From contig CANLOU010000001.1 in assembly GCA_947492995.1 (NCBI GenBank), positions 1,001,001 to 1,065,000 of the forward strand: DNA of 64,000 bases. The letters are read 5' to 3'. Made by a program: the position numbers and the translations under genes. Shown here piece by piece: positions 1,669-38,280 of this stretch (the first letter of the stretch is position 1; every line of letters starts with the position of its first letter). The notes beneath the pieces were generated by a model. The model searched no databases. It saw only the letters and a list, made by a program, of their open reading frames with translations, and was not told the DNA's origin. This DNA is from an uncultured Litoreibacter sp. (lineage in GTDB: Bacteria > Pseudomonadota > Alphaproteobacteria > Rhodobacterales > Rhodobacteraceae).

Positions 1669-2507
1669 TTGAACTTCGCGATCATGTCCTTGATGCCCGG
1701 AATCGTTTCGATCTGGTCGGCATGCGAAGGCTGGAAGTATTGGATCAGGCTGCGCTGAGACAAGCCACCGAGGATCGTGAAGTAGTACATTTCATAGCCC
1801 GGAAGAACGCAGCACGGATGGTAGCCGCTATCAAGGCAGATCGTTGACCCATCGACGAGGTGATATGCATCGCCGGGTTTACCGTCTTGGCGCTGCAGCA
1901 TTTGGACACCGGACCCATGGTCAGGCTTGAATCGGAAATTGTAAGTTTCATCGTGGCGTGTCTCGATCGGCAAGCGGTCGGTGTCATGCTTATGGCTTGG
2001 GAAGCCAGACCAGCCACCCGCACCAACTGTAAACAGTTCGCTGACCAGAAGGCGGCCAACTTTGTCATGATATTTGGTGCCCAGAATATGTTTGATCTTG
2101 CGATGCGTTTTAGTGTCATCAGATCCGTACTGAACAAGGTCCAGCTCGTCGCTTCGTACAGCGAAAGGTTCCAGAACGGCGTCATATCTGGCACCGGCAA
2201 CGAACACCTCGGCCTCGTCGCTGGTGCAGACCATCACTGACTTTGCACCGCTTGGCGAATAGACGCCCTCAGGTTCTCCCCCCCAGACGTCACCAACCCG
2301 TCCGCCGATGTCGCTGGCCTTAAATCCCTCAATCTCGGTGTCTACGCTTCCTGTCGCGGGAACGATGCAGGTCTCGTAGCCCGGCACTTGGTATTCAAAG
2401 GCCTCGCCCTTTTTCAGCTTCACGATGTTGAAGTAATTCAGCGGAACCGTGGCGTCGTCGATATCCACGATCGGTTTGTTTTGATTGTCGAAAGGAGCAA
2501 TATGCAT
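1665..2507 (-). CDS. iolB: 5-deoxy-glucuronate isomerase
   Basis: A 280-residue bicupin protein of the IolB family, normal length for the family. The C-terminal cupin carries WSGFPSHKHD and the HDETYNFRF/DSGYHPCC blocks, which supply the metal-binding His and Glu residues in this family. The enzyme isomerises 5-deoxy-D-glucuronate to 2-deoxy-5-keto-D-gluconate, the substrate of the IolC kinase encoded just upstream. The Shine-Dalgarno sequence AAGAGGA lies a few bases before the ATG at 2507 and includes the iolC stop codon, so the start is well supported. It overlaps iolJ by four bases. Confidence 0.93.
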   Translation of the reverse strand: MHIAPFDNQNKPIVDIDDATVPLNYFNIVKLKKGEAFEYQVPGYETCIVPATGSVDTEIEGFKASDIGGRVGDVWGGEPEGVYSPSGAKSVMVCTSDEAEVFVAGARYDAVLEPFAVRSDELDLVQYGSDDTKTHRKIKHILGTKYHDKVGRLLVSELFTVGAGGWSGFPSHKHDTDRLPIETRHDETYNFRFKPDHGSGVQMLQRQDGKPGDAYHLVDGSTICLDSGYHPCCVLPGYEMYYFTILGGLSQRSLIQYFQPSHADQIETIPGIKDMIAKFK

Positions 2508-2516
2508 GGGGTCCTC

Positions 2517-3500
2517 TTAAGGGTCACTTGGGCCAGGATGGGTTTTCAGGAAAGACTCTAACTCAGCCAAATTTGGCAATGCGGGGGCGCAGCCGGGCTT
2601 GCCGACCACAATTGCGGCACAGGCTGAACCACGGTAGATGGCGTCTTTTAGGTCGTATCCAGATGCGATGGCAGCCGTAAGGCCTGCCATAAAGCTGTCT
2701 CCAGCACCTGTCGGTTTCAGGGCCGCTACCGGATAGATACCCGTTGTGATCACATCACCATCGGCATAGGTGACCGCGCCTTTCTCGCCCATCTTGTAGA
2801 TGACGATACTTGCCGAGCTGCGTGCCAGGTCTTCGGCCTTTGCCTGTCCCAGCGAAATGTCGCCAGCCATAAAACCGAACTCTTCGTCATTGCCGACGAT
2901 CATGTCGGACAATGCACCTGCCCTGCTCAGAACATCTTGCGCGACCTCTGGGCTTGGCCATGAATAGGGTCTGTAGTCGACGTCAAAGATAATCGGTAAC
3001 CCGGCTTGTCTGGCCAATTCAAATGCATGGAAGGCGGCGCTTCGAGACGGTTCAGAGGCAAAGACGGTACCCGCAGTTATCAAAGCCCCGTACGCACTGA
3101 AATCAATCTCATCAATGTCGGCCTCGGTCATTTGGAAATCGGCGGCACCATTGCGGTAAATCACGGTTTGATGTTGCTCAATCCGGCTTTCATAGACCGC
3201 CAAGGAATTCCGAAATTCCCCACCTACCGCGCGGACGTGTTGATGGCCTACCCCGTAGTGTTCAAGCTGGTTTCTGCAATACCGCCCGACACTGTCGTCT
3301 GAGACGCAAGTGACCAGATCGGCGTTACCCCCAAAGAGGCAGATACCGGCGGCCGTATTTGCAGCGGACCCTCCCAAACCAGACCTAAATTCCGTCGCCT
3401 CTTCAGTTTTTGTACCCGGAGGATGCGGGAAGAAATCCATTCCTGCACGCCCAATGACCAGAAAGTTATTCTGACGGATCCCGGCTAAAAGGTCAGCCAT
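2517..3500 (-). CDS. iolC: 5-dehydro-2-deoxygluconokinase (PfkB family)
   Basis: A PfkB/ribokinase-family kinase of 327 residues. The N-terminal GRAGMDFFP and GLGGSAANTA motifs bind sugar, and the C-terminal PTGAGDSFMAGL block contains the catalytic base Asp. It phosphorylates 2-deoxy-5-keto-gluconate at C6. The frame is open back to 3548, but I choose ATG 3500: it follows the iolD stop by one base (TAA-C-ATG) and is preceded by GGAAAGG about eight bases upstream, inside iolD. The upstream ATG would give 16 extra residues without PfkB similarity. This is a rhizobial/roseobacter-type stand-alone IolC, not fused to an aldolase-like DUF2090 domain. Confidence 0.92.
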   Translation of the reverse strand: MADLLAGIRQNNFLVIGRAGMDFFPHPPGTKTEEATEFRSGLGGSAANTAAGICLFGGNADLVTCVSDDSVGRYCRNQLEHYGVGHQHVRAVGGEFRNSLAVYESRIEQHQTVIYRNGAADFQMTEADIDEIDFSAYGALITAGTVFASEPSRSAAFHAFELARQAGLPIIFDVDYRPYSWPSPEVAQDVLSRAGALSDMIVGNDEEFGFMAGDISLGQAKAEDLARSSASIVIYKMGEKGAVTYADGDVITTGIYPVAALKPTGAGDSFMAGLTAAIASGYDLKDAIYRGSACAAIVVGKPGCAPALPNLAELESFLKTHPGPSDP

Positions 3501-3501
3501 G

Positions 3502-5373
3502 TTAGACGCCTTTCCGTTGCTTGGGCCGAGAGCTTTCCCAGTCTTCATGTGCGGCCTTTACCTTTGGGTTGTCCGTGATGTGGGGTGTTCCGACCTCCCA
3601 CCAAGTGTGCCCTTCAGTCGTCCAGCCCTCGTATGGATCAACCTGCATCACAATAACAGAAGTCTTGTCGGCAGATTTTGCCCGCTTAAATGCGTCACCA
3701 AGTTCGGCAGGATTAGACACTGTTTCTGCATTCGCGCCCATCGATCTTGCATGCGCTTCGAAGTCGACACCAAAGGCGTTTGGTACCGTTGGCGTATCGG
3801 CAAACAGGTTGTTGAAGCTCTCATTTCCAGTGTTGTTTTGTAGCTTATTGATGACAGCGAAGCCGCCGTTATCGAGCACAAGGAGGATCATTTTCTTGCC
3901 AGTCAATACAGATGAATAGACGTCCGAGTTGAGCAGCAAATAAGAGCCGTCGCCGCAAAATACGATTGTGTCCTGCTCCGGCTCACCTTCTGCTTGCGCG
4001 ATCCGCGCGCCCCAGCCGCCAGCGATTTCATAGCCCATACAGGAGAATCCGAATTCTACATCGACCGTGCCCAATCCAAGGGTGCGCCAATTTGCGGTGA
4101 CTTCAGCTGGTAGCCCACCAGCCGCGGCCACGATCCGGTCGCGCGGATCACACAGCGCATTGACCACCCCGATTGCCTGCGCATAGGAATTTGGTCTGTT
4201 CCCGTGCGCTACATTGTCAGCCACATAGGCGTCCCACTTCTTGCGTTCAGATTGGGCGCTTTTGGTCCATTCTGTGGGTGGTTCGAACTCACCTAAAGCT
4301 GAATCTAGGTCCAACAATCCCAATTTCGCATCACCGACAATCGGCAAGGATTGATGCTTCCCAGCGTCATGGCGGGCAGCATTGAGCGAGATAATCTGCG
4401 CGTCTAGGGCGAACGCCGTCCAAGACCCAGTGGTGAAGTCCTGCAACCGACAACCGACAGATAGAATGACATCTGCCTGTTCTGCGATTGTGTTCGCAGA
4501 GTTCGAGCCCGTCACGCCCACTGGTCCGATGTTAAGGGGATGGTCTGCCAATAGGTTGGCGCGTCCTGCGATGGTTTCGATCACTGGAATTTGGTGTTTC
4601 TCCGCGAATGCCGTCATCTCCTTTACAGCTTTGGCATATTGCACCCCTCCACCTGCAATAATAACCGGGCGTTTGGCCGATTTGAGCACTAGCGCTGCGT
4701 CCTGTACTTCTGCACTGTCCGGTGATTGCCTGCGAATGCGATGCGTTTTTTCAGCAAAGAACGAGATCGGGTAGTCGTACGCCCAGCCCTGAACATCCTG
4801 TGGTAGCCCAACGAATGCGGGCCCGCAGTCTGCCGGGTCAAGCATCGTTGCCATAGCGGCCGGCAAGGACTGAAGGATTTGGGCGGGATGCGTAATCCGG
4901 TCCCAATATCGACTGACTGATTTGAACGCGTCGTTGACGCCTAAGGTCGGGTTTCCAAAATGCTCAAGCTGCTGCAAGACCGGGTCTGGAAGCCGTGTCA
5001 AAAAGGTGTCCCCGCACAATAACAGCATTGGCAGGCGGTTCGCATGCGCGAGCGCAGCCGAGGTTAGAAGGTTGGCTGTGCCAGGCCCGGCGCTTGCAGT
5101 GCAGAACATAAATCGTTGGCGAAGGTGGTACTTCGAATAGGCGGCGGCCGCGAAGCCCATGCTTTGCTCGTTCTGGCCTCGATAAAGAGGCAATTCTTCT
5201 TTGTGGTCGAAAAGTGCTTCGCCCAAACAAGTTACGTTGCCATGGCCAAAAATTCCAAATCCCCCGCCGCAGACTCGCGTTTTGATGCCGTCAATCTCAA
5301 TATACTGAGCCGCCAGGTACCGGATGATAGCCTGCGCTGTTGTGAGCCGGATGGTTTCAGTCGGTTTACTCAT
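3502..5373 (-). CDS. iolD: 3D-(3,5/4)-trihydroxycyclohexane-1,2-dione acylhydrolase
   Basis: A 623-residue thiamine-diphosphate enzyme. The N-terminal pyrimidine-binding domain has YRGQNEQSMGFAAAAY, with the conserved Glu that activates ThDP. A central Rossmann-like domain follows, and the C-terminal pyrophosphate domain has CGDGSYLLLNSD with LVLDNGGFAVINKLQ (the GDG-NN magnesium motif). IolD hydrolyses the C-C bond of trihydroxycyclohexane-dione to 5-deoxy-glucuronate. It is the first gene of the iolDCBJ operon. The start ATG 5373 is preceded by AGGGAG about eight bases upstream. Its promoter lies in the divergent region that also holds the 18-bp operator at 5453-5470, so repression by the nearby LacI-family protein is likely. 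Confidence 0.94.
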   Translation of the reverse strand: MSKPTETIRLTTAQAIIRYLAAQYIEIDGIKTRVCGGGFGIFGHGNVTCLGEALFDHKEELPLYRGQNEQSMGFAAAAYSKYHLRQRFMFCTASAGPGTANLLTSAALAHANRLPMLLLCGDTFLTRLPDPVLQQLEHFGNPTLGVNDAFKSVSRYWDRITHPAQILQSLPAAMATMLDPADCGPAFVGLPQDVQGWAYDYPISFFAEKTHRIRRQSPDSAEVQDAALVLKSAKRPVIIAGGGVQYAKAVKEMTAFAEKHQIPVIETIAGRANLLADHPLNIGPVGVTGSNSANTIAEQADVILSVGCRLQDFTTGSWTAFALDAQIISLNAARHDAGKHQSLPIVGDAKLGLLDLDSALGEFEPPTEWTKSAQSERKKWDAYVADNVAHGNRPNSYAQAIGVVNALCDPRDRIVAAAGGLPAEVTANWRTLGLGTVDVEFGFSCMGYEIAGGWGARIAQAEGEPEQDTIVFCGDGSYLLLNSDVYSSVLTGKKMILLVLDNGGFAVINKLQNNTGNESFNNLFADTPTVPNAFGVDFEAHARSMGANAETVSNPAELGDAFKRAKSADKTSVIVMQVDPYEGWTTEGHTWWEVGTPHITDNPKVKAAHEDWESSRPKQRKGV

Positions 5374-5421
5374 GTGCGGGCTCCCTAAGGAAGAAAGAAT
5401 CAGAAAGTCTTGAATGCGCTA

Positions 5422-5449
5422 TTGACCGTAGGGCGCAGTTGAAGATACT
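5422..5449 (+). promoter_or_regulatory. predicted sigma70-type promoter for the idh-iolE-like-idh operon
   Basis: TTGACC at 5422-5427 (5 of 6 to the -35 consensus) and GATACT at 5444-5449 (4 of 6 to the -10) are separated by 16 bases. Transcription would begin near 5456, inside the 18-bp operator. That is the classic layout for steric repression. It is predicted from sequence alone. Confidence 0.4.
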
Positions 5450-5452
5450 CGT

Positions 5453-5470
5453 TTTGCAACCGGTTGCAAA
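5453..5470. promoter_or_regulatory. LacI-family operator in the iolD / idh divergent promoter
   Basis: A perfect 18-bp palindrome, TTTGCAACCGGTTGCAAA, with the central CG typical of LacI/GalR operators. It lies 82 bases upstream of iolD and 20 bases upstream of the plus-strand dehydrogenase start, directly after the predicted -10. A copy differing at two of 18 positions is found upstream of the LacI-family gene at 9762-9779, which identifies the likely ligand protein. Binding has not been shown. Confidence 0.75.
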
Positions 5471-5490
5471 CTGTTTTTGAGGGACCTGCG

Positions 5491-6585
5491 ATGTCTGAGA
5501 TTGGCGTTGGGATCATAGGTGGTGGATATATGGGCAAAGCCCATGCCGTCGCCATGTCTTCGGTTGCATCAGTGTTCGGGACGCGTTTGCGACCACGGCT
5601 AGAAGTTGTTGCCGCGTCCAGCCAAGCCTCGGCTGAGAAATATCGCCAGGCCTTTGGCTTTCGCCGCGCTGCGGTTGATTGGCGCGACCTGATCGAGGAC
5701 CCTACCGTCGAGGCGATCGTGATCGCCTCACCGCAAACAACGCATCGCGAAATTGCCGAGGCAGCTTTTGCGCGGGGACTTCATGTTCTTTGCGAAAAGC
5801 CGTTGGGGGCATCAATCTCAGACGGTGAGGCAATGGTCGCGGCGGCGCTGGAAAGTGGCTGTCGGAACATGGTCGGCTTTAACTACATCAGAACGCCGGC
5901 TTCTCAGTTCGCGCAAAAGTTAATTTTGGAGGGTCGCATAGGTGATGTGACCTATTTCCGTGGCGAACATACTGAAGATTTTGATGCTGATCCAGACGGC
6001 TCGGCGACATGGCGAAGCCAAGGCATTTCCAATGGGACAATGGGCGATCTTGCGCCTCATATGATTAACGCGGCGCACCGGCTGATCGGTCCTATTGGGT
6101 CGCTGATCGCTGAGGTTGAAACGGTTCATACGAACCGAGGGGGCGTTGCCGTCACGAATGATGACCACGCGCAGATGATGTGCAGGTTTGAAAGCGGCGT
6201 CATGGGGCACATGTTTTTCAGCCGAACTGCGACCGGGCGCAAGATGGGCTACGCGTATGAGGTGCACGGCACCAAAGGTGCGATACGGTTCGATCAGGAA
6301 GATCAAAATGCGCTGTGGCTTTATCTTGCGGAGGGGCCGGAGGAAGAGCGGGGGTTCCGCAAAATTTTGACTGGGCCCGCACATCCCGACTATTTGGCCT
6401 TTTGTCAGGGGCCGGGGCATGGGACGGGGTATCAGGATCAAATTATTATCGAGGCGAAAGATTTTTTGGTCGCGATTGAAACGGGAGAGGACGTTTGGCC
6501 GACTTTTGAGGAAGGCCTAAACGTTAACAAGGTGGTCTACGCGGCGCTTGAATCGAGCAAGCAAAAAGCGTGGGTCAACGTCTAA
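5491..6585 (+). CDS. Gfo/Idh/MocA-family oxidoreductase (inositol-type dehydrogenase)
   Basis: A 364-residue NAD(P)-dependent dehydrogenase. The N-terminal Rossmann motif is VGIIGGGYMGKAHA (about residues 5-18) and the catalytic CEKPLGA Lys-Pro motif sits near residue 107. The C-terminal part has GDLAPHMINAAH, where family members place substrate-binding Asp/His. Substrate is not certain: scyllo-inositol or another inositol isomer is likely given the operon. The frame extends to a TTG at 5464 inside the operator, but ATG 5491 has GAGGG seven bases upstream and starts right before the Rossmann fold, so it is chosen. It is the first gene of a three-gene operon, and repression through 5453-5470 is expected. 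Confidence 0.85.
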   Translation: MSEIGVGIIGGGYMGKAHAVAMSSVASVFGTRLRPRLEVVAASSQASAEKYRQAFGFRRAAVDWRDLIEDPTVEAIVIASPQTTHREIAEAAFARGLHVLCEKPLGASISDGEAMVAAALESGCRNMVGFNYIRTPASQFAQKLILEGRIGDVTYFRGEHTEDFDADPDGSATWRSQGISNGTMGDLAPHMINAAHRLIGPIGSLIAEVETVHTNRGGVAVTNDDHAQMMCRFESGVMGHMFFSRTATGRKMGYAYEVHGTKGAIRFDQEDQNALWLYLAEGPEEERGFRKILTGPAHPDYLAFCQGPGHGTGYQDQIIIEAKDFLVAIETGEDVWPTFEEGLNVNKVVYAALESSKQKAWVNV

Positions 6586-6602
6586 TCGGGAAAGACGAAC
6601 AC

Positions 6603-7490
6603 ATGATAAAAATTGGAAATGCACCCTGTTCATGGGGCGTTGAATTCGCGGATGATGACCGGAACCCAACGTGGCAGACGGTTCTGACGGAGAACTCGGA
6701 TGCGGGTTACAAAGGCATTGAACTTGGCCCGGTTGGCTTCATGCCAGAGGACGCATCCGTGCTGTCTGAAGAGCTGCAAAAACACGACCAGCAACTTATC
6801 GGCGGCGTGGTTTTCCGCCCCTTCCATGATGCGGCGCAATGGGACGACGTGATGGACGGCTCGGTGCGGACATGCAAGGCATTGGTCGCGCATGGGGCCC
6901 AGCATTTGGTGCTGATCGACTCGATCTCGCCACGCCGGGCGCCGACTGCCGGGCGGGCTGACGAGGCCGAGCAGATGGATGACGCGGAGTGGTCCGCCTT
7001 CCGCGACCGTATTGCCACCATCGCCAAAATGGGGGCCGAGGAATACGGGCTGACGGTGGGCATGCATGCCCATGCCGGCGGCTTCATTGACTTCGAGCCA
7101 GAGCTGGAGCGCCTGCTGGATGAGGTCGATGAAAGCATCCTGAAAATCTGTTTCGACACGGGCCACCATTCCTATGCGGGCTATGATCCCGTGGCATTTA
7201 TGAAGCGCCATATCGACCGGATCAGCTACATGCATTTCAAAGATATTGACCCCAAGGTGAAGGCCACGGTCGTCGCCAACCGGACCAACTTCTATGATGC
7301 CTGTGGTCAGGGTATTTTCTGCAATCTGGGCGACGGGGATGTGGATTTTCCGGCTGTGCGTCAGGTGCTTCTGGACAACAATTTCGAGGGGTGGTGCACG
7401 GTCGAACAGGACTGTGATCCGCTGCTTGATCCCGACCCATTGGGCGACGCGAAAAAGAACCGCGCCTATCTGCAATCCATCGGCTTTTGA
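6603..7490 (+). CDS. TIM-barrel inosose dehydratase/isomerase-like protein (IolE/IolI type)
   Basis: A 295-residue xylose-isomerase-like TIM-barrel protein. It begins IGNAPCSWGVEF and has metal-ligand blocks typical of the family: GIELGPVGF, VGMHAHAGGF, CFDTGHHSYAG, YMHFKDID and WCTVEQD. In the inositol pathway this fold gives 2-keto-myo-inositol dehydratase (IolE) and inosose isomerase (IolI). The N-terminus differs from the classical IolE pattern I know (with ...PIxWxNDD), and no classical iolE is present in the window. It may therefore replace IolE or act on another inosose. ATG 6603 is preferred over the ORF start at 6570, which overlaps the upstream gene; a purine-rich GGGAAAGACG precedes it. 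Confidence 0.75.
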   Translation: MIKIGNAPCSWGVEFADDDRNPTWQTVLTENSDAGYKGIELGPVGFMPEDASVLSEELQKHDQQLIGGVVFRPFHDAAQWDDVMDGSVRTCKALVAHGAQHLVLIDSISPRRAPTAGRADEAEQMDDAEWSAFRDRIATIAKMGAEEYGLTVGMHAHAGGFIDFEPELERLLDEVDESILKICFDTGHHSYAGYDPVAFMKRHIDRISYMHFKDIDPKVKATVVANRTNFYDACGQGIFCNLGDGDVDFPAVRQVLLDNNFEGWCTVEQDCDPLLDPDPLGDAKKNRAYLQSIGF

Positions 7491-10183: not shown

Positions 10184-11215
10184 ATGCCCGAGCTTTACGT
10201 GACCAACTTCAACCGCAACTTTACCGGCGTCTCGGCGACGATTGCGGGGGTTGTCGCGGCGCAGGAGTTTGACCTGCGGCTGGTGGGGGAGGCCTTGCCG
10301 GGGGTGGCCGCCCCGGTGTCGAAGCGCGACGCCGTGGCGATGTGCAAGACGCCGCCCGCGGGCCGGCCGTTTTCCATCTGGCACGTGCGGCGCAACACCG
10401 AGATGCGGGCGGGGATTTGGGCGCGGGACGTGTTGAAGCGGCCGATCAAGCTGGTGTTCACCAGTGCCGCGCAGCGGCGGCATTCGGCGTTCCCGCGGTG
10501 GCTGATCTCGAAGATGGATGCGGTGATTGCCACCACGGACAGGGCGGCGGAGTTTGTTCCGCATGTCAAAGCGGTGGTGCCGCATGGTGTGAATACGGTG
10601 CGGTTTGCGCCCGCACAGGACCGGGCGCAGGCGTGGGCGGCGCTTGGGTATGGCGGCGCGCGTGGCGTTGCCTGTGTGGGGCGCATCCGGCAGGAAAAGG
10701 GCACGGACCTTTTTGTGGACGCGATGTTGGAGGCATTGCCAAAGCTGCCCGATGTGACGGCCTTGGTGATTGGCAGAGCGGGCGGCAAGCACCGCGCATT
10801 TCTGGAGCAACAAAAAGCGAAAGTTGCGGATGCCGGTTTGGGCAACAGGCTGCTGTTCGTCGGCGAGATTGGCGGCGACCGGATGCCCGAGGTGATGCGC
10901 GCGCTGTCGCTGCTGGTGCCGCTGCCAAGATATGAAGGCTACGGGATGACCCCGCTTGAGGCGATGGCATCCGGCGTGCCGTTTGTGGGCAGCGACGCTG
11001 GATATTTCCCGGCTTTTTCGTCTCAGGGGCAGGCGGGGCTGATTGTGGAGCCGCAGGCCGCAAGCGCGGCAATCGTGGAGCTGATGTCGGATGAGGCGCG
11101 GCTGGCCAAGATGTCGGACGCGGCACGGGATGTGGCCTGTTCGGCCTATGGGATACAGACGGAGGCTGCGGGGATCGCGCGCGTCTATGAACAGCTTTGG
11201 AACAGTGCCGCATGA
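10184..11215 (+). CDS. glycosyltransferase family 4 protein
   Basis: A 343-residue GT-B fold glycosyltransferase. The C-terminal nucleotide-sugar domain has VGRIRQEKGTDLFVDAM (about residues 165-181), FVGEIGGDRMPEV, and the retaining GT4 motif PRYEGYGMTPLEAMASG, with two Glu residues eight apart, near residues 245-262. There is no signal peptide or membrane segment, so it is cytoplasmic or membrane-peripheral. It probably adds a hexose to a surface glycan or lipopolysaccharide core; donor and acceptor cannot be told from sequence. It overlaps the next glycosyltransferase by four bases (ATGA), suggesting an operon. Confidence 0.85.
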   Translation: MPELYVTNFNRNFTGVSATIAGVVAAQEFDLRLVGEALPGVAAPVSKRDAVAMCKTPPAGRPFSIWHVRRNTEMRAGIWARDVLKRPIKLVFTSAAQRRHSAFPRWLISKMDAVIATTDRAAEFVPHVKAVVPHGVNTVRFAPAQDRAQAWAALGYGGARGVACVGRIRQEKGTDLFVDAMLEALPKLPDVTALVIGRAGGKHRAFLEQQKAKVADAGLGNRLLFVGEIGGDRMPEVMRALSLLVPLPRYEGYGMTPLEAMASGVPFVGSDAGYFPAFSSQGQAGLIVEPQAASAAIVELMSDEARLAKMSDAARDVACSAYGIQTEAAGIARVYEQLWNSAA

Positions 11216-11931
11216 AGACGTTTGTCATTCATCTGGAACGCGCCACCGCGCGTGAAGCGCAGGTTCAGCATATCCTGAGCCACCTGCCCGAGGCGGAGGT
11301 GCTACCGGCTTGCGACGGACCCGCGATGACGCAGGCAGAGCGAGACGCGATTTACCCCGGACCCGCTATTCACTTCCCGGCCTATCCGTTTGCGTTGAGC
11401 GCGGGGGAGATCGGATGTTTCCTGAGCCACCGCGCAACGTGGGATATGATCGTAGCCCAAGACCTGCCATTTGCCTTGGTCTGCGAGGATGACATTGAAA
11501 TTGACCCGGACGTGTTTGCCGGGGCTTTCTCCTTCGCACAGGCCCATATGGGCCAGTTCGGGGTGATCCAATTTCAGGTGCGCGACCTGAAGCCTGATGC
11601 GCAAGAGGTCGCGAGCGACGGCGCATTCAGGCTGATGCGGCCCACCATTGTGCCGGTTCGAATGTCGGCGCAGCTTATCACGCGGCAAGCGGCGCAGGCG
11701 TTCCTTGACGCCAGCCAGACGATTGATCGCCCTGTCGACAGCTTTGTGCAAATGCGCTGGCAAACTGGCGTCGAGGTTGCCTGTGTGGTGCCATCGGGCG
11801 TGTCGGATCGCACGGCAGAGACCGGGGGCAGCACCCTGCAAACCAAACGCGGGTTTTGGGACGAATTGGCCGTTACGCTGCCGCGTATGCGGTACAAGCG
11901 GGCGATCAAAACGCTGTCGCAGCGCAACTAG
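11212..11931 (+). CDS. glycosyltransferase family 25 protein (LPS biosynthesis type)
   Basis: A 239-residue GT25 protein. It opens KTFVIHLERATAREAQ, the family's start pattern, and carries LSAGEIGCFLSHRATW (about residues 63-78) and the acidic VCEDDIEID motif, the DxD-like metal/donor site, near residue 90. Members transfer galactose to lipooligosaccharide or collagen-like substrates. ATG 11212 overlaps the GT4 stop. Its TAG stop and that of the convergent ABC-glycosyltransferase gene share the four bases CTAG at 11928-11931. Specificity is unknown. Confidence 0.85.
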   Translation: MKTFVIHLERATAREAQVQHILSHLPEAEVLPACDGPAMTQAERDAIYPGPAIHFPAYPFALSAGEIGCFLSHRATWDMIVAQDLPFALVCEDDIEIDPDVFAGAFSFAQAHMGQFGVIQFQVRDLKPDAQEVASDGAFRLMRPTIVPVRMSAQLITRQAAQAFLDASQTIDRPVDSFVQMRWQTGVEVACVVPSGVSDRTAETGGSTLQTKRGFWDELAVTLPRMRYKRAIKTLSQRN

Positions 11932-14597
11932 CTGTTTATCACCAGATCAGCGGCGCGCGCGTGCAGCGTGCTGAGGCTTTCGGCGGTTTCAAAATTGCGT
12001 TCCACCGCATCGGCGCGGGCTGCGTAATCTTCTTCGGACATTGTGTGCAGCGCGGCCGAAATCTCGTCGATGGTTTGGCAGATGATAAGGCCGGAGCTGT
12101 CGAAATGGTCGCCGACATCTGGAGCGCCCCAATAGATCGGGACGGTGCGGCACAGGGCGGCATCCACCAGCTTCTCGGTGATGTAGCCATGCGCCTGCGT
12201 GTTCTCGATCACCACGGAATAGCGGAACGGCAGCAACCCGTCGGCCTTGTTGTCGAACGGATTGTAGCCGCGGCCCATGATGTCGACATCAAGTGATTTT
12301 TCGCGGATCAGGTCGACCACCTCGTGGCGCAGCTTGTGGCCCGACTGGTCGCGTTTGTTGGACGCAATCAGCGACGCCATTTTGGCTTTGGCGGCGGGCT
12401 TGGCGGGCCATGTGGTCAGCCAAGTCGTGGCAGGCAGCAATTCCCGGGCATTTGGAACCTGCCCCAGCAAGTCGACGTCATGTGTCAGGATGCGGTGGAA
12501 CCGCCGATGGTAACGTTTTGCCAATGCCAAATGCTTGCCGTGGATCGTGTTTGGCTCGACGATCATCACCGACAGGTTTGGCTTGAGGGTCGGGCGCGGC
12601 TGCCAATAGACCTGTTTGCGTGAAAAGATCAGCAGATGATCGGCGCGGTCCATATCGGCAATTGTACCCTGCTGCAGCCGGTCGGGACGGCCCAATGGCC
12701 AATCCAGTTCGTCCAGCGGGATGTTGGTCATGCTGATGCGCGGGCGAATGTGGTAGGGCAGCACCGCGACGGCGGCGGAATGCGTTCGGATGACTGGCGC
12801 AGGGCGCTTGGCGGGTTTGGCATCGCCTTTGCTGAATTGCAGATCATGAAGGTTGGAATAGATCCCGCCCGAGGCCAACAGTTCCTCATGCGTGCCCGAT
12901 TGCGACAGGCGACCATTGTCGAGGACGACGATCTGGTCGGCGTTTCTGATGGTCGAGAGCCGGTGGGCGATGATGAGCGTGGTGCGGCCCTCCGACAGTT
13001 TGTCGAGGGCGGTTTGCACGACCTTCTCGGATTCCGCATCAAGGGCGGAGGTTGCTTCATCCAGCAGCAAAATGGGCGTGTCGCGCAGCAGCGCGCGCGC
13101 GATGGCGACGCGTTGGCGCTGCCCGCCAGACAGGTTTGACCCCCGCGGGCCCACCTGCGTGTCCAGCCCGTTTGGCAAGGACTTCAGGAAGTTTGTGACA
13201 TTGGCCGCTTCAAGCACGTCCTGAAGGTCCTCGTCAGTCACGTCGGTGCGACCGAGCAGAATGTTTTCGCGCAGCGTTTCGTCAAAAAGCAGCGCCTCCT
13301 GCGAGACGACCGAGAACATCGACCGCAGGTCGGGCAGGGTCAGGTCGGCAATGTTGGTGCCGCCGATTTTGACGGTGCCGGTTTGCGCATCAATCAGGCG
13401 GGTGAGCACGTTGAACACCGTGCTTTTGCCTGCGCCGGACTGCCCGACCAGCGCCGTTGTGGTCCCCTTGGGCACGGTCAGCGTCAGGTTGTTCAAGACC
13501 GGCAGCTCGCCATAGGACAGGCTGATATTGTCGAAGGTGATGGTGCTGTCTTCGGGCAGTTTGGTGCCTGGTTTGGCGGTGTCTTTGACCTCTGGCCTGG
13601 TGTCCATCAGCCCGAATATGCGCGCCAGGCTGGCCTGCATCACCTGCCAGTAACCCGCCACATCCGCCAAGCGGCGTAACGGCTGGAAGGCCAGCGACAT
13701 GGCGGCGAAGAAGGACATGAATTGCCCGACGGTTTTTTCACCGGTGGCGATTTCGGGCCCGCCATAGATCAGCACGCAGAAGAAGCCGAAGCCCACGGCG
13801 AGATCCACAAGCCCGGGGACCGTGGCCTGACCGGCCACCGTCTTGATCGAGGTGCGCACCCATGACTGCGACAGCCCCGCAAATTGGTCGCGCTGGTAGC
13901 TTTCCATGCGGTTCAGTTTGATCGGGGTGACGCCGTGAAAGATCTCGTCCAGCCGGGTGGTGCGCTTGCCCGCAATGTCGCGCAACAGGTGGCTTTTGCG
14001 GCGGATGTAGCGCTGCACCGCGATGGAGGGCAGCATCAGCAGCGGCGCGCCGATGACCGCGATGGCGGCCCATTTCCAGTCGATTGAAATAGCGACGGCC
14101 ATGAGCGAGATCAGCGAGATCAAGTCGCGCCCCGCCCCGGTGATGATGATGTTCCACAGCCCCTGGATCGAGGTGACGTCGCCCTGCACCCGCTCGATCA
14201 GGGAGCCGGGCGAGGTGCGCGAATGAAAGCCGTTGTCCAGATCGAGCGTGTGTCCGAGCAGGTCGATTTGCAGCTCGGTTGACGCCATCAGCGATGTGCG
14301 GGCCATGATGATCCGCTGCGCCACGCCCGAGACCGCGCGGACCACGAACAGCGCGAAGATCGCCAGCGCGACCAGAAAGGCCAGATCGGTCTGGCCGTCG
14401 ACGAAGACCACGTCAAACATCGGCTGCAGCATGTAGCTGAGCAGGCCCAGCGTGGAGCCCTCGATAATCATCAGCAGCATGGCCAGCGCCAGCCAGCCGA
14501 TATGTTTGCGCAAATAGCCCCGCCACAGCCGCCCGAACAACTGGGTGGAGGTCTGGTCGGACACGATTTGCGCGGGGTCTGCGGCCGGTTTTTGCAC
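11928..14597 (-). CDS. fusion of MsbA-like ABC exporter and GT10 (fucosyltransferase-like) domain
   Basis: One uninterrupted frame of about 889 residues. Residues about 25-330 form the six-helix exporter domain. The ATPase domain follows, with Walker A GQSGAGKST (385-393), signature LSGGQRQR (from 489), Walker B ILLLDEATSALD and an IIAHRLS switch region, ending near residue 590. About 270 more residues follow, with no stop between. They end in a GT10-like block, VVIENTQAHGYITEKL (795-810) then TVPIYWGAP, which matches the conserved C-terminal donor-binding region of alpha-1,3-fucosyltransferases. I use GTG 14597, preceded by AAGGG; the frame is open to ATG 14705. It probably exports and decorates a lipid-linked glycan, an inference supported by the GT4/GT25 neighbours. 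Confidence 0.8.
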   Translation of the reverse strand: MQKPAADPAQIVSDQTSTQLFGRLWRGYLRKHIGWLALAMLLMIIEGSTLGLLSYMLQPMFDVVFVDGQTDLAFLVALAIFALFVVRAVSGVAQRIIMARTSLMASTELQIDLLGHTLDLDNGFHSRTSPGSLIERVQGDVTSIQGLWNIIITGAGRDLISLISLMAVAISIDWKWAAIAVIGAPLLMLPSIAVQRYIRRKSHLLRDIAGKRTTRLDEIFHGVTPIKLNRMESYQRDQFAGLSQSWVRTSIKTVAGQATVPGLVDLAVGFGFFCVLIYGGPEIATGEKTVGQFMSFFAAMSLAFQPLRRLADVAGYWQVMQASLARIFGLMDTRPEVKDTAKPGTKLPEDSTITFDNISLSYGELPVLNNLTLTVPKGTTTALVGQSGAGKSTVFNVLTRLIDAQTGTVKIGGTNIADLTLPDLRSMFSVVSQEALLFDETLRENILLGRTDVTDEDLQDVLEAANVTNFLKSLPNGLDTQVGPRGSNLSGGQRQRVAIARALLRDTPILLLDEATSALDAESEKVVQTALDKLSEGRTTLIIAHRLSTIRNADQIVVLDNGRLSQSGTHEELLASGGIYSNLHDLQFSKGDAKPAKRPAPVIRTHSAAVAVLPYHIRPRISMTNIPLDELDWPLGRPDRLQQGTIADMDRADHLLIFSRKQVYWQPRPTLKPNLSVMIVEPNTIHGKHLALAKRYHRRFHRILTHDVDLLGQVPNARELLPATTWLTTWPAKPAAKAKMASLIASNKRDQSGHKLRHEVVDLIREKSLDVDIMGRGYNPFDNKADGLLPFRYSVVIENTQAHGYITEKLVDAALCRTVPIYWGAPDVGDHFDSSGLIICQTIDEISAALHTMSEEDYAARADAVERNFETAESLSTLHARAADLVINS

Positions 14598-14771
14598 TGT
14601 AAACTGCCCTTTTTCGGCGCGATGGCCGTCTTTGTTGTCACATTTAGCGTGAAAGGCCGCACTGCGGCAAGCGACATGGGCTTTGGGCCTTTTAACCGCT
14701 TCCACATGGGGGTATGCAGCCGCGTCCGCAAGGACTCACCTAACTTTAACCCCAAAAGGACCCTTAGGATC

Positions 14772-15794
14772 ATGGGCTACAAAATCGCCGTCGTAGGTGC
14801 CACCGGTAACGTGGGCCGCGAAATGCTGAACATCCTGGCGGAACGCCAGTTTCCCGTAGACGAATTGGCCGCGCTCGCGTCGCGCCGTTCGCTTGGTACA
14901 GAAGTTAGCTTTGGCGATAAGACACTCACGACGAAGGACCTTGATACGTTTGATTTCGCCGGCTGGGACATGGCGCTGTTCGCCGTGGGGTCCGAGGCCA
15001 CGAAGAAATACGCGCCTGCCGCTGCCAAGGCTGGCTGCGTGGTGATTGATAACTCGTCGCTGTATCGCTACGACCCTGACATTCCGCTGATCGTGCCGGA
15101 AGTGAACCCCGACGACGTGATGATGTATTCCAAGAAAAACATCATCGCGAACCCGAATTGTTCGACCGCGCAGATGGTGGTGGCGTTGAAGCCGCTGCAT
15201 GACCGCGCGACGATCAAGCGGGTGGTTGTGTCCACCTACCAATCGGTGTCCGGCGCCGGCAAAGGCGGCATTGACGAGCTGTGGGATCAGACCAAGTCGA
15301 TCTACAACCCGACCGACGACAAGCCGGCCAAGCAGTTCACCAAGCAGATCGCGTTCAACGTGATCCCGCATATCGACGTGTTCATGGACTCGGGCGAGAC
15401 CAAGGAAGAATGGAAGATGGTCGCGGAGACGAAGAAAATCGTCGACAAGGACATCAAAGTGACGGCCACCTGCGTCCGGGTGCCGGTCTTTGTGGGCCAT
15501 TCGGAAGCGGTCAATATCGAGTTCGAAGACTTCCTGGACGAAGATGAAGCGCGCGACATCCTGCGTGAAGCGCCCGGCATCATGGTGATCGACAAACGCG
15601 AAGACGGCGGCTACGTCACGCCTGTGGAATGTGTGGGCGATTTTGCCACGTTCATTTCGCGCATCCGGCAGGACCCAACCATCGAGAACGGTTTGAACCT
15701 GTGGTGCGTGTCCGACAACCTGCGCAAAGGTGCGGCGTTGAACGCGGTGCAGATCGCAGAATTGCTGGGCAACCGGGTGCTGAAGAAGGGCTAA
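14772..15794 (+). CDS. asd: aspartate-semialdehyde dehydrogenase
   Basis: A 340-residue enzyme of normal length. It begins YKIAVVGATGNVGREML, the NADP-binding Rossmann loop. The catalytic cysteine lies in NPNCSTAQMV (about residues 129-138), and the substrate-binding block with SVSGAGKGGIDEL follows. It reduces aspartyl phosphate to aspartate semialdehyde for lysine, diaminopimelate, threonine and methionine synthesis; dapD and dapE lie 40 kb downstream. ATG 14772 is chosen because the Rossmann fold starts there and AGGA precedes it; the frame open to 14502 overlaps the divergent ABC gene and is not used. A terminator hairpin follows at 15825. Confidence 0.96.
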   Translation: MGYKIAVVGATGNVGREMLNILAERQFPVDELAALASRRSLGTEVSFGDKTLTTKDLDTFDFAGWDMALFAVGSEATKKYAPAAAKAGCVVIDNSSLYRYDPDIPLIVPEVNPDDVMMYSKKNIIANPNCSTAQMVVALKPLHDRATIKRVVVSTYQSVSGAGKGGIDELWDQTKSIYNPTDDKPAKQFTKQIAFNVIPHIDVFMDSGETKEEWKMVAETKKIVDKDIKVTATCVRVPVFVGHSEAVNIEFEDFLDEDEARDILREAPGIMVIDKREDGGYVTPVECVGDFATFISRIRQDPTIENGLNLWCVSDNLRKGAALNAVQIAELLGNRVLKKG

Positions 15795-34567: not shown

Positions 34568-36439
34568 CTACTCGGCTGCTTCTGTGATGCCTATAAAGCC
34601 GCCGGACTGCCGTTGCCAATAGCGCGCGTAAAGCCCGTCACGTTTCAGCAACTCGGCATGGGTGCCCTGTTCAACGATCTTGCCGTCCTCCAGCACGACG
34701 ATGCGGTCCATCCGCGCAATGGTGCTCAGCCGGTGGGCAATGGCGATGACGGTCTTGTCTTCCATCGCGACTTCCAAGGCGGCCTGGATCGAGGCCTCCA
34801 CCTCGCTGTCCAATGCGCTTGTTGCTTCGTCCAAAATCAGGATCGGGGCGTTTTTCAACATGGCGCGCGCCAATGCAATGCGCTGCCGCTGCCCGCCGCT
34901 CAGTTTCACGCCCCTTTCGCCCAGATGCGCCTCATACCCTTTGCGGCCCCTATGGTCCTCCAGCGTCAGAATGAAGTCATGCGCCTCTGCCTTCCGCGCG
35001 GCGGCGATCATCTCCTCTTCGGTGGCGTCAGGTCGCCCATACAAAATGTTGTCTCGCGCGGAGCGGTTGAACATCGCCGTTTCCTGCGTGACCATGCCGA
35101 TGGCCTGCCGCAAGCTGTCCTGCGTGACGGATGACACCGATTGGCCGTCAATCAGCAGCTGGCCTTTTTCCAAATCATACAACCGCAGCAGCAGCGCGAC
35201 GAAGGTCGATTTGCCGGCCCCAGACGCGCCCACCAGCCCCAGCTTTTCGCCCGGCGCGATGGTGAGCTGTACGTCGTCAATCCCGCCAATCGTGCGCCCG
35301 TAGCGAAAGGTCACGTCGTCAAAATCAATCTGCCCATCGGTCACCACCAATGGTTTGGCGTCGTGTCGATCCACCAGCCCATGTGGTGGGGTCAGGGTGC
35401 GCATCCCGTCTTCGACCTCGCCGATATTGGCGTACATCCCCATCAGCGCGAAGCTGACCCACCCTGTCATCTGCGCGATGCGGATCGACACGGAGCCCGC
35501 CGCAGCGATGTCACCTGTCGTCGCTCCGCCGCCTTGCCACAGGAGCACTGTGCCGCCGATCAACAAGATCGGCAGAATGCCTGCGGTGGTCATCAATGCG
35601 AAGCGGAAACCGGTGGACAGCGCGCCAAATTCCAACGCGCGGTCGCGCAAGGTGGCCATCGCGCCCAAGGCACTTTCGTCCTCGTGGCGCGCATGCCCAA
35701 ACAGTTTGACGGTTTTGATGTTGGTGATCGTGTCGACCACCTGCCCGGTCACCATGGTCCGCGCCCCCGCCCGCGCGGCAGAGCGTTTGCGGATGCGCGG
35801 CATAAACCAGCGGATCATGAAAATGTAGCCGGCCAACCAGACCAGCAGGACCAAAGCCATCCAGCCATTGATGGTGAATAGCAGCAGCACCGACCCGATG
35901 ATCGAGGCCAGCGCGAAAAAAACCACGTTGATGGTTTCCGCCGTCACCTCGGTCAGGGCGCGGGCGGTCTGCATTTGCTTCTGCGCGATGCGGCCTGCGA
36001 AGTCATTGTCGAAATAGTCTACCGCGTGGCCCAGCGTCCATCGGTGCAAGCGGCTTTGGATCAGCGGGTAGACATTCGGCGGCACCACGATGCCGTTGAA
36101 CGCGGCGCTTGCGCCAAACGTCAGCGGGCGCACCAGAAGGAAGAATCCGACGAACAGCACGACAAGCGGCCAGTTCATCGCGAAGAACTCCGCCGGCGCG
36201 GTCACTGTGGCGGCGTCAATGACCCAACCCAGAAGCAGCGCGGTCACGGCCTCCATCGTTCCCGCAATGGCAGAGAACAGCGCGGCGATCGCAAGCACCG
36301 GCCACGACCCCGCAAGGCACCATTTGCAAAAGGCAAATAGCGTGCGCGGCGGCGCGGTCTTGGCGGGGCTGAAGGGGTCAATCAGGTTGCCCAACCGCTC
36401 CAAAATCGGGTGTAGCCGTTCGGTGATGCGTTCAATCAT
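34568..36439 (-). CDS. ABC exporter, fused permease and ATPase (second of a pair)
   Basis: A 623-residue MsbA/multidrug-type half-transporter: six membrane helices (about 40-330), then an ATPase domain with Walker A GASGAGKST, signature LSGGQRQRIALA, Walker B ILILDEATSALD and IAHRLST. It ends YWQRQSGGF..., a tail shared with its upstream partner, whose stop overlaps its ATG (36436-36439). The two are therefore paralogous and probably form a heterodimer. The substrate (lipid, drug or peptide) is unknown. It is encoded inside the hslO-to-nav operon. Confidence 0.88.
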   Translation of the reverse strand: MIERITERLHPILERLGNLIDPFSPAKTAPPRTLFAFCKWCLAGSWPVLAIAALFSAIAGTMEAVTALLLGWVIDAATVTAPAEFFAMNWPLVVLFVGFFLLVRPLTFGASAAFNGIVVPPNVYPLIQSRLHRWTLGHAVDYFDNDFAGRIAQKQMQTARALTEVTAETINVVFFALASIIGSVLLLFTINGWMALVLLVWLAGYIFMIRWFMPRIRKRSAARAGARTMVTGQVVDTITNIKTVKLFGHARHEDESALGAMATLRDRALEFGALSTGFRFALMTTAGILPILLIGGTVLLWQGGGATTGDIAAAGSVSIRIAQMTGWVSFALMGMYANIGEVEDGMRTLTPPHGLVDRHDAKPLVVTDGQIDFDDVTFRYGRTIGGIDDVQLTIAPGEKLGLVGASGAGKSTFVALLLRLYDLEKGQLLIDGQSVSSVTQDSLRQAIGMVTQETAMFNRSARDNILYGRPDATEEEMIAAARKAEAHDFILTLEDHRGRKGYEAHLGERGVKLSGGQRQRIALARAMLKNAPILILDEATSALDSEVEASIQAALEVAMEDKTVIAIAHRLSTIARMDRIVVLEDGKIVEQGTHAELLKRDGLYARYWQRQSGGFIGITEAAE

Positions 36440-38280
36440 TCCGCCGCCTCGGTGGTGTTCAGGAAGCCGCCCGATTGCCGCTGCCAGAACCCAGCATATA
36501 GCCCGCCTTGCGCCAAAAGCGCGTCATGTGTGCCGTTTTCGACAATTGTGCCGCCTTCAATCACGACGATGCGGTCCAACTGGGCGATGGTGCTCAATCG
36601 GTGGGCAATCGCGATCACGGTTTTGCCCTCCATCACGCCGTAAAGCGTGTCTTGGATGGCCGCTTCGACCTCGCTGTCCAACGCGCTTGTCGCTTCGTCC
36701 AGCACCAGGATCGGGGCGTTCTTCAAGATCACCCGCGCCAAGGTCACCCGCTGCCGCTGTCCACCTGACAATTTCACGCCGCGCTCACCCACCTGCGCGT
36801 CGTACCCCCTGCGCCCCTCGGGGTCGCTGAGGTCCAGGATGAACTCGTGTGCCTGCGCCCGCTTCGCGGCCTCGATCATCTGTTCTTCAGTCGCATCAGG
36901 CCGCCCGTACAAAATGTTGTCGCGCACAGACCGGTGCAGCAACGCGCTGTCTTGGCTGACCATGCCAATCGCGTGGCGCAGGCTGTCCTGCGTCACGTCA
37001 CGGATGTTCTGCCCGTCGATCAGCACATCGCCTTGTTCGGCGTCGTAAAAACGCAATAGCAGTTTCACCAATGTCGATTTGCCCGAGCCGGACCGCCCGA
37101 CAATCCCGACCTTCTCGCCCGAGGCAATGCTCAGCGTCAGATTATCCAGCCCGCCCACACCGCCGCCATAGGTATGGGACAACGCTTGCACGTCGATCTT
37201 GCCGTCGGTCAGCTTCAATGGCGTCGCGCCTTTCTTGTCCACCAGGGTGATCGGCTGCGCGATGGTTTCCATGCCCTCTGATACAACACCCAGCGAGCGG
37301 AAGAACGACGTCAGCGCCCACATGATCCATCCCGTCATGGCGTTCAACCGCAGCGTCAGCGCGGTTGCCGCGGCCACGACGCCAACGGATGCGGTGCCTT
37401 GGACCCACAACCAAATGGCCCATCCCACAACGCCCACGATCAGCAACCCGTTCAGGGTCATAAGCATCAGATCCATCTTGGTGAAGATGCGCATCTCGGC
37501 CGCAAAGGTGGTGCGGGCGTTTTCAATCGCCTCCTTCGCAAAGTCGATTTCGCTGTCGTGATGCGCAAACAATTTCACCGAATGGATGTTGGTATAGCTG
37601 TCCACCACGCGGCCCGTCACTTGGCTGCGCGCATCTGAAGATGCCTTCGATGCAGGCCCAACCCGTTTGATGGTCCATGCCATCAGCCATGCGTAAAGCG
37701 CCAGCCAAATCAGCAGGGGCAGCATCAAGCGTGGGTCGCCGCCCCACAGCAAAACCGCCGCCCCGACCAGATAGGCAATCGAAAAGGTGATGGCGTCGAA
37801 CACCTGAAACACTGCCTCACCCGCTGCAGGAGGGGTCTGCATGATCCGGTTCGCGATGCGCCCTGCAAAGTCGTTCTCGAACCAACCCACCGATTGCCGC
37901 AACACATGTTTATGCGCCCGCCAGCGGAATAGCGTGCCGTAATTGGGCAGGATGGCGTTGTTCAAAATGCCAACGTCGAACGCCTGAATAATGGGCCGTA
38001 GGAACACGATGAACATGGCAACCGCAAACACCTCCCAGCCGTAATCAGCCAGGAAGGTTGTGGGCTCCGCTTCGCCCAACACATCGACGATGCGGCCCAT
38101 GTAGTAAATCAGCCAGACCTCAACAGCGGCCACGATGACGGACATGATGGCGGCGATCCAGAAAAGCCGTTTGAAAGGCACGGAATAGGCTTTGATGAAC
38201 GGCCATATCTTGGTCGGCGGGACGTCGACTTCGTCATACGCCTCGTAGGGATCGACCAGATTTTCGAAGTATTTGAACAT
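36436..38280 (-). CDS. ABC exporter, fused permease and ATPase (first of a pair)
   Basis: A 614-residue half-transporter with six membrane helices and an ATPase domain: Walker A GRSGSGKST, signature LSGGQRQRVTLA, Walker B ILVLDEATSALD and IAHRLST. It starts 36 bases after the LysE gene. The C-terminal QRQSGGFLN tail matches that of the second exporter gene, and both begin with a similar acidic N-terminal extension (NLVDPYEAY / NLIDPFSPA), which points to gene duplication and pairing. Both copies keep intact Walker A, Walker B and signature motifs. The Walker B Asp is followed by Glu in both, so neither ATP site looks degenerate. Confidence 0.88.
   Translation of the reverse strand: MFKYFENLVDPYEAYDEVDVPPTKIWPFIKAYSVPFKRLFWIAAIMSVIVAAVEVWLIYYMGRIVDVLGEAEPTTFLADYGWEVFAVAMFIVFLRPIIQAFDVGILNNAILPNYGTLFRWRAHKHVLRQSVGWFENDFAGRIANRIMQTPPAAGEAVFQVFDAITFSIAYLVGAAVLLWGGDPRLMLPLLIWLALYAWLMAWTIKRVGPASKASSDARSQVTGRVVDSYTNIHSVKLFAHHDSEIDFAKEAIENARTTFAAEMRIFTKMDLMLMTLNGLLIVGVVGWAIWLWVQGTASVGVVAAATALTLRLNAMTGWIMWALTSFFRSLGVVSEGMETIAQPITLVDKKGATPLKLTDGKIDVQALSHTYGGGVGGLDNLTLSIASGEKVGIVGRSGSGKSTLVKLLLRFYDAEQGDVLIDGQNIRDVTQDSLRHAIGMVSQDSALLHRSVRDNILYGRPDATEEQMIEAAKRAQAHEFILDLSDPEGRRGYDAQVGERGVKLSGGQRQRVTLARVILKNAPILVLDEATSALDSEVEAAIQDTLYGVMEGKTVIAIAHRLSTIAQLDRIVVIEGGTIVENGTHDALLAQGGLYAGFWQRQSGGFLNTTEAAE

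Follow-up and report, generated by a model that had tools for sequence, protein, structure and literature searches.

The DNA studied here is a 64,000-nucleotide window from an uncultured Litoreibacter sp. (family Rhodobacteraceae; GenBank assembly GCA_947492995.1, contig CANLOU010000001.1, positions 1,001,001 to 1,065,000 of the forward strand), and the gene in question lies on its minus strand at 11928–14597, where an MsbA-like ATP-binding cassette (ABC) half-exporter is joined in frame to a fucosyltransferase domain of glycosyltransferase family 10 (GT10; other glycosyltransferase families are abbreviated likewise). The original prediction, made from the sequence with no database search, had placed both parts in a single frame with no stop between them, and this was confirmed: the minus-strand frame 11928–14705 has no internal stop and reads ABC exporter and then GT10. 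The codon at 14597 is GTG (opening V-Q-K...), and since a GTG start is kept at the matching place in all three full fusions found (below), the 889 aa protein that begins there is the likely product. Its transmembrane domain (PF00664) spans 13680–14489 (residues 73–342 of the 925-aa reading of the open frame) and its nucleotide-binding domain (NBD; PF00005) 13047–13496, with exporter homology extending to about 12831; a linker of ~16 residues follows (residues 590–605 of 889; 12783–12830), and the GT10 domain occupies 11931–12779, all on the minus strand. Pfam E-values were 6.4e-30 for ABC_membrane, 6.9e-33 for ABC_tran and 9.7e-8 for Glyco_transf_10, and the PF00852 (Glyco_transf_10) cutoff of 23.9 bits is passed by this protein (32.3 bits) and by the other two full fusions (26.4 and 26.5 bits).

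The exporter part has its transmembrane and nucleotide-binding domains in one chain, and its S-G-x-G-K-S, LSGGQ and LLLDE motifs are invariant across 35 aligned exporters; with the two Pfam matches and with TIGR02203 (MsbA) as the top match among 188 NCBIfam matches (473.7 bits), this bears out the MsbA-like half-transporter that had been proposed. It aligns with MsbA chains of the PDB (3b5w and others) over its full length, and P-glycoprotein-type chains match it better still. Thus the window protein has in common with MsbA, the lipid A-core flippase, the half-exporter architecture and the best equivalog match, and differs from it in scoring under the curated cutoff, in having a C-terminal enzyme and in adjoining glycosyltransferase genes. 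Two paralogs were considered as the true MsbA and set aside, since L136 passes the cutoff of TIGR02204 instead and L137 scores 413 with TIGR02203; no lipid A genes were seen among the 10 neighbouring open reading frames (ORFs) scanned near these two. Elsewhere in the window, at about 34616–37209 on the minus strand, two ABC half-exporter genes stand side by side and possibly encode a heterodimer.

The C-terminal region, described earlier as GT10-like, also matches the Helicobacter pylori fucosyltransferase 2nzw in a PDB sequence search (3.4e-12) through its ENTQ..GY.TEK donor block. An AlphaFold 2 model of the isolated tail has a predicted local distance difference test score (pLDDT) of 93.7, and the first 17 PDB rows that Foldseek returned for it are all fucosyltransferase structures (2nzy/2nzx/2nzw of H. 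pylori, 8d0o/8d0w of FUT9, 7yro and 9s6a; E 2e-8 to 1.9e-6), which we take to be GT10 enzymes; their TM-scores are modest (0.44–0.54). The H. pylori α1,3-fucosyltransferase (2nzw, 2nzy) is thus alike in donor block and fold, and differs in being a separate protein where the window GT10 is tethered to a flippase. Four residues (E95, R171, E222 and K223 of alignment A1) are invariant in 42 sequences, of which only the donor block (the PF00852 match, 12120–12392, holding the invariant Glu-Lys of 'YITEK') was aligned residue-by-residue to the H. pylori enzyme; a mixed alignment, A2, was dropped, as it seemed to force separate GT10s onto the ABC part. Glu95 and Glu249 are given as key residues of H. 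pylori FucT in a section of PMC4202792. The invariant Glu of the window's 'VEP' motif (E95 of A1; 12555–12557) is a candidate catalytic base that may be the equivalent of H. pylori Glu95, the correspondence being one of analogy and not of alignment.

How widely the fusion is kept, a check that had been proposed with the prediction, was read in 21 Litoreibacter genomes, including the window's own (G000). The full fusion is present in three of them: G000, G019 (81% identity to the window protein) and G016, an uncultured Litoreibacter (76%). Between G000 and G019 the tail is 72% and the exporter part 86% identical, and the ratios of nonsynonymous to synonymous substitution (dN/dS) are 0.17 for the tail and 0.16 for the ABC part; the fusion tail is therefore under purifying selection in the one pair that could be measured. 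An exporter ortholog is found in 18 of the 21 genomes (missing from G008, G012, which has 57% completeness, and G020), and the 18 differ in what follows the exporter: a GT10 tail in three, a truncated GT10 tail in three, an FkbM methyltransferase tail in seven, a short tail in two and none in three. FkbM stands where the window protein has GT10 in L. albidus (G001), L. ascidiaceicola (G003), L. halocynthiae (G004), L. meonggei (G006), G005, G011 and G014 (loci L010, L013–L018, L059 and L062–L067); it was identified by Pfam (PF05050) in the single tail scanned, that of G006, to which the other six are 56–98% identical. The truncated tails (G010, L054; G018, L055; G017, L056) retain the N-terminal half of the GT10 domain; all three break off at one position, ahead of the donor half, and the invariant Glu is missing from them. 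Short tails occur in L. arenae (G002) and G007, and G009, G013 and G015 are tail-less.

On the exporter tree one clade (100/99) unites G013 with the genomes that have a GT10 tail or half-tail, and the FkbM and short-tail genomes fall in another group (87/88) that includes G156 of another genus; the tail states require six changes. The six GT10-type tails cluster together (Shimodaira–Hasegawa-like approximate likelihood ratio support of 100, in a quick tree), which points to a single fusion event. The exporter tree joins G010 to G013 and not to G017/G018 (88/80), and the GT10 tail may have been truncated either once or twice.

As predicted, the fusion gene converges with two plus-strand glycosyltransferase genes, a GT4-type gene (PF00534/PF13692) at 10184–11215 and, directly downstream of it, a GT25 gene (PF01755, the Pfam 'LPS biosynthesis' family, LPS being lipopolysaccharide) at 11197–11931. 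At their 3′ ends the GT25 and fusion genes share 4 bp (11928–11931), and this overlap of convergent stops is kept in 10 of the 12 loci that have a GT25-exporter pair. On the far side lies a plus-strand gene at 14772–15794 that we take, from its sequence, to be asd; it serves as a syntenic anchor and is not considered part of the function, and the kept order is GT4 and GT25 forward, exporter with tail reverse, asd forward. The 12 loci with GT25 beside the exporter comprise all 10 with a full enzyme tail, where GT4 adjoins as well in every case, and the two with a short tail; the other six, with a half-tail or no tail, have no GT25 beside the exporter, and one of them, G010, keeps GT4.

The gene gmd, which with fcl supplies GDP-fucose, was found (TIGR01472 over cutoff) in 13 of the 21 genus genomes, and these are the same 13 that have an intact GT10 (part of the fusion in 3, a gene of its own in 10), so that gmd is present in 13/13 genomes with an intact GT10 versus 0/8 of the others (Fisher p 5e-6, a figure that ignores kinship). 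G009 (79% complete) was scored as lacking gmd, yet a gmd fragment sits at a contig end there. No half-tail genome (0/3) has gmd over the cutoff, and GT25 is missing from them too. In G000 itself gmd, fcl and manC form a cluster that lies some 105 kb away from the fusion.

Unfused relatives of both tails occur in other genomes. In Jannaschia pagri (L194) the exporter ortholog (2268–3998; 64%) and GT10 (3995–4843) are separate genes with a 4 bp overlap, and they are followed by gmd (4840–5883) and fcl (5876–6808), each overlapping the previous gene, and then by GT11 and GT4. In Pseudohalocynthiibacter aestuariivivens (G056) a pathway run within about 12.5 kb comprises a lipid A acyltransferase, GT25, FkbM, GT10, gmd, fcl, a DegT aminotransferase, GT11, an unannotated ORF, manC, GT4 and a transferase of 3-deoxy-D-manno-oct-2-ulosonic acid (Kdo), and its separate FkbM is 65% identical to the fused FkbM. 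The order in G256 is asd, an FrhB-like gene, the exporter ortholog, GT11, GT4, GT25 and a lipid A acyltransferase homologue, and in G015 it is fcl, gmd, GT10, GT11 and GT25. GT10 and FkbM, both kinds of fused tail, thus occur elsewhere as separate members of one pathway. The overlapping operon of J. pagri likely represents the state before fusion, and the fusion probably arose by the joining of adjacent, overlapping genes of this kind.

Searches beyond the genus gave no further example. At 1e-10 the GT10 tail was matched in 50 of 394 family genomes, and a frame longer than 620 aa was found in the window's own genome alone; the next longest were 619 aa in G157 and 531 aa in G133, in which a second domain was not looked for. 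In a class sample of 385 genomes and a phylum sample of 398 no other PF00852 frame exceeded 450 aa except that of G702, from another family of the class, which was rejected as an ABC fusion: this protein of ~874–876 aa (L138, 383–3004, minus strand) combines the GT10 and GT11 fucosyltransferase families in one chain, with no ABC part. The FkbM tail, used as a query on 238 family genomes, gave 5 matches, none in a frame longer than 328 aa. An exporter ortholog is present in 295 of the 394 family genomes, and no long tail was found at the 49 loci where the C-terminus was read, the longest extra C-terminus being 64 aa. At 24 of these 49 (among such orthologs are L076, L088, L093, L099 and L116) the exporter has 34–48 extra C-terminal residues, and five extensions of 46–48 residues resemble one another: each has a run of charged residues and ends in basic and aromatic ones. 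Among the best 80 of 272 named GT10 loci (flanks of up to 4 kb) an exporter fusion is present only at L153, the G016 locus, and nearby genes include GT11 at 28, GT25 at 16, gmd at 11 and FkbM at 9. ABC matches of ~30% in L154, L162 and L218 were taken to be different ABC genes and not counted (L154 and L162 have only short ORFs at that place), and L177, whose contig bears the title Polaribacter vadi, has a Roseobacter-type GT10 (45%) that reflects either a mislabelled or contaminated record or a transfer. No exporter-fucosyltransferase fusion was named among the papers listed in searches of open-licence literature aimed at such a fusion or at this organism.

The reading that we favour, with a probability of about 0.6, is that the window protein flips lipid A-core, or a glycolipid like it, in the manner of MsbA and carries a core fucosyltransferase of its own, which acts at the cytoplasmic face before flipping. 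It is favoured because of the LPS-core context and because the best NCBIfam match, though below cutoff, is MsbA; that context consists of the pathway genes, the GT25 family and, in two other genera, neighbouring genes for lipid A and Kdo. The protein would be a homodimer in which each NBD tethers one GT10 fucosyltransferase. The GT4 and GT25 enzymes encoded alongside would help, on the cytoplasmic face, to build a lipid-linked oligosaccharide, most likely lipid A core, to which the GT10 domain would add fucose from the GDP-fucose supplied by gmd and fcl, and the ABC part would then flip the finished glycolipid at the expense of ATP. The topology of ABC exporters is known and GDP-fucose is cytosolic, which is why modification would precede export on the cytoplasmic side; the co-occurrence with gmd and the Jannaschia operon help this view, which agrees with the original prediction. 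Fucose transfer, its acceptor, the lipid A-core cargo, transport and any hand-over from transferase to flippase are all steps that we infer.

Parts of this scheme have counterparts in known systems. The H. pylori Lewis-antigen enzymes, of which HP0826 is presumably a GT25 enzyme, recall the relatives of the window locus, in which GT25, GT10 and GT11 occur together with genes for GDP-fucose. According to a passage in PMC12342981, Wzk flips the O-antigen on which the β1,4-galactosyltransferase HP0826, FutA/B and FutC build the H. pylori Lewis antigens, and MsbA flips lipid A-core there. That system differs in belonging to another phylum, and no GT11 match was found in G000. The Wzm/Wzt O-antigen exporters belong to another ABC class. 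As one part of PMC11231755 has it, Wzt bears a C-terminal glycan-binding module on the exporter NBD, an extra module that is tied to glycan end-modification, as the tail of the window protein would be; the Wzt module binds, whereas the window tail looks catalytic. Brucella WadA, in the portion of PMC9938171 that concerns it, is a core glycosyltransferase and O-antigen ligase in one protein, and so links a core glycosyltransferase with a subsequent LPS-assembly reaction, much as proposed here, with a ligase as the partner where the window protein has an ABC flippase. The same portion describes a Brucella strain with mNeonGreen on its only MsbA that grows normally.

Several observations weigh against the favoured reading. 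The TIGR02203 score lies below the equivalog cutoff of 602, as do those of four other scanned exporter orthologs (474–486), and the ortholog is absent from the near-complete genomes G008 and G020, so it is not indispensable (the nearest ABC protein in these two has TIGR02203 as its best model). Only three independent gmd-GT10 contrasts exist on the tree, all in agreement and too few for significance, and across the family GT10 and gmd are less tightly associated (gmd in 30/40 GT10-bearing versus 12/40 GT10-lacking genomes; Fisher 1e-4). Both GT25 and GT4 are retained in G002 and G007, which lack an enzyme tail, and G009 and G015 carry GT25 elsewhere in the genome, away from the exporter. With dS saturated, the two remaining pairs of intact fusions yielded no dN/dS. 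The GT10 part is not reliably placed by the full-length model (mean pLDDT 74.3), which is poor there (six rows cover it), with pLDDT <50 over residues 763–840, as it is in the linker.

The missed cutoff and the two genomes lacking the ortholog would also fit a PglK/Wzk-like protein with the same fusion and a different lipid-linked cargo (undecaprenyl-linked O-antigen, capsule or glycolipid), and the PglK model does match at 187.5 bits, while the H. pylori precedent has the Lewis-bearing glycan travel by Wzk; the MsbA model scores far higher, however, GT25 is an LPS-biosynthesis family, and a lipid A acyltransferase and a Kdo transferase are neighbours in other genera, and we regard such a cargo as rather unlikely. 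The prospect that the fusion merely tethers or co-expresses two enzymes, with fucosylation and transport uncoupled, has only slightly less than an even chance and is compatible with the flippase–fucosyltransferase reading, which leaves coupling open. The 4-bp overlap in Jannaschia means that fusion could have been a near-neutral merger, and GT10 is unjoined to an ABC exporter at 79 of the 80 named loci above; a single neutral merger is nonetheless insufficient to explain why exporters from two parts of the tree bear two different enzymes of the same pathway at this one C-terminus. A third idea, that the tail recognizes substrate instead of, or besides, acting as a catalyst, as the carbohydrate-binding domain of Wzt does, draws on the three genomes that keep the N-terminal half without donor domain or invariant Glu, at a dN/dS of 0.20 (G017–G018). 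That value is, however, fourfold that of the exporter part (0.047) with dS near saturation, the lack of gmd and GT25 in these genomes fits ongoing decay too, and the window protein retains the invariant residues in a genome that has gmd, so that this role appears improbable. A merge of two genes in sequencing or assembly, named with the original prediction as what would overturn it, had no point in its favour and has a negligible chance, given that the identical in-frame junction is present in G019 and G016 at 76–81% identity. The other condition named there, a C-terminal region with no GT10 match, is contradicted by the PF00852 match.

Returning to the MsbA-type flippase with its own core fucosyltransferase, flipping and glycan synthesis are usually the work of separate proteins, and it is hard to prove that one waits on the other; a natural fusion, a methyltransferase version of it and an unfused operon together offer a direct test of physical coupling between decoration and flipping. 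More speculatively, and with a good deal of doubt, an MsbA-type flippase may serve as a dock for whichever enzyme finishes the glycan last in the cytoplasm (GT10 or FkbM according to sub-clade), tethering would make flipping contingent on a completed glycan and so act as a quality check, and the acceptor-side half-tail might be kept as a sensor after the loss of GDP-fucose. The system resembles a pump whose finishing tools can be exchanged, GT10 in a few marine bacteria and FkbM at the same spot in sister species, and it predicts that marine Litoreibacter would have a fucosylated (or methylated) LPS core.

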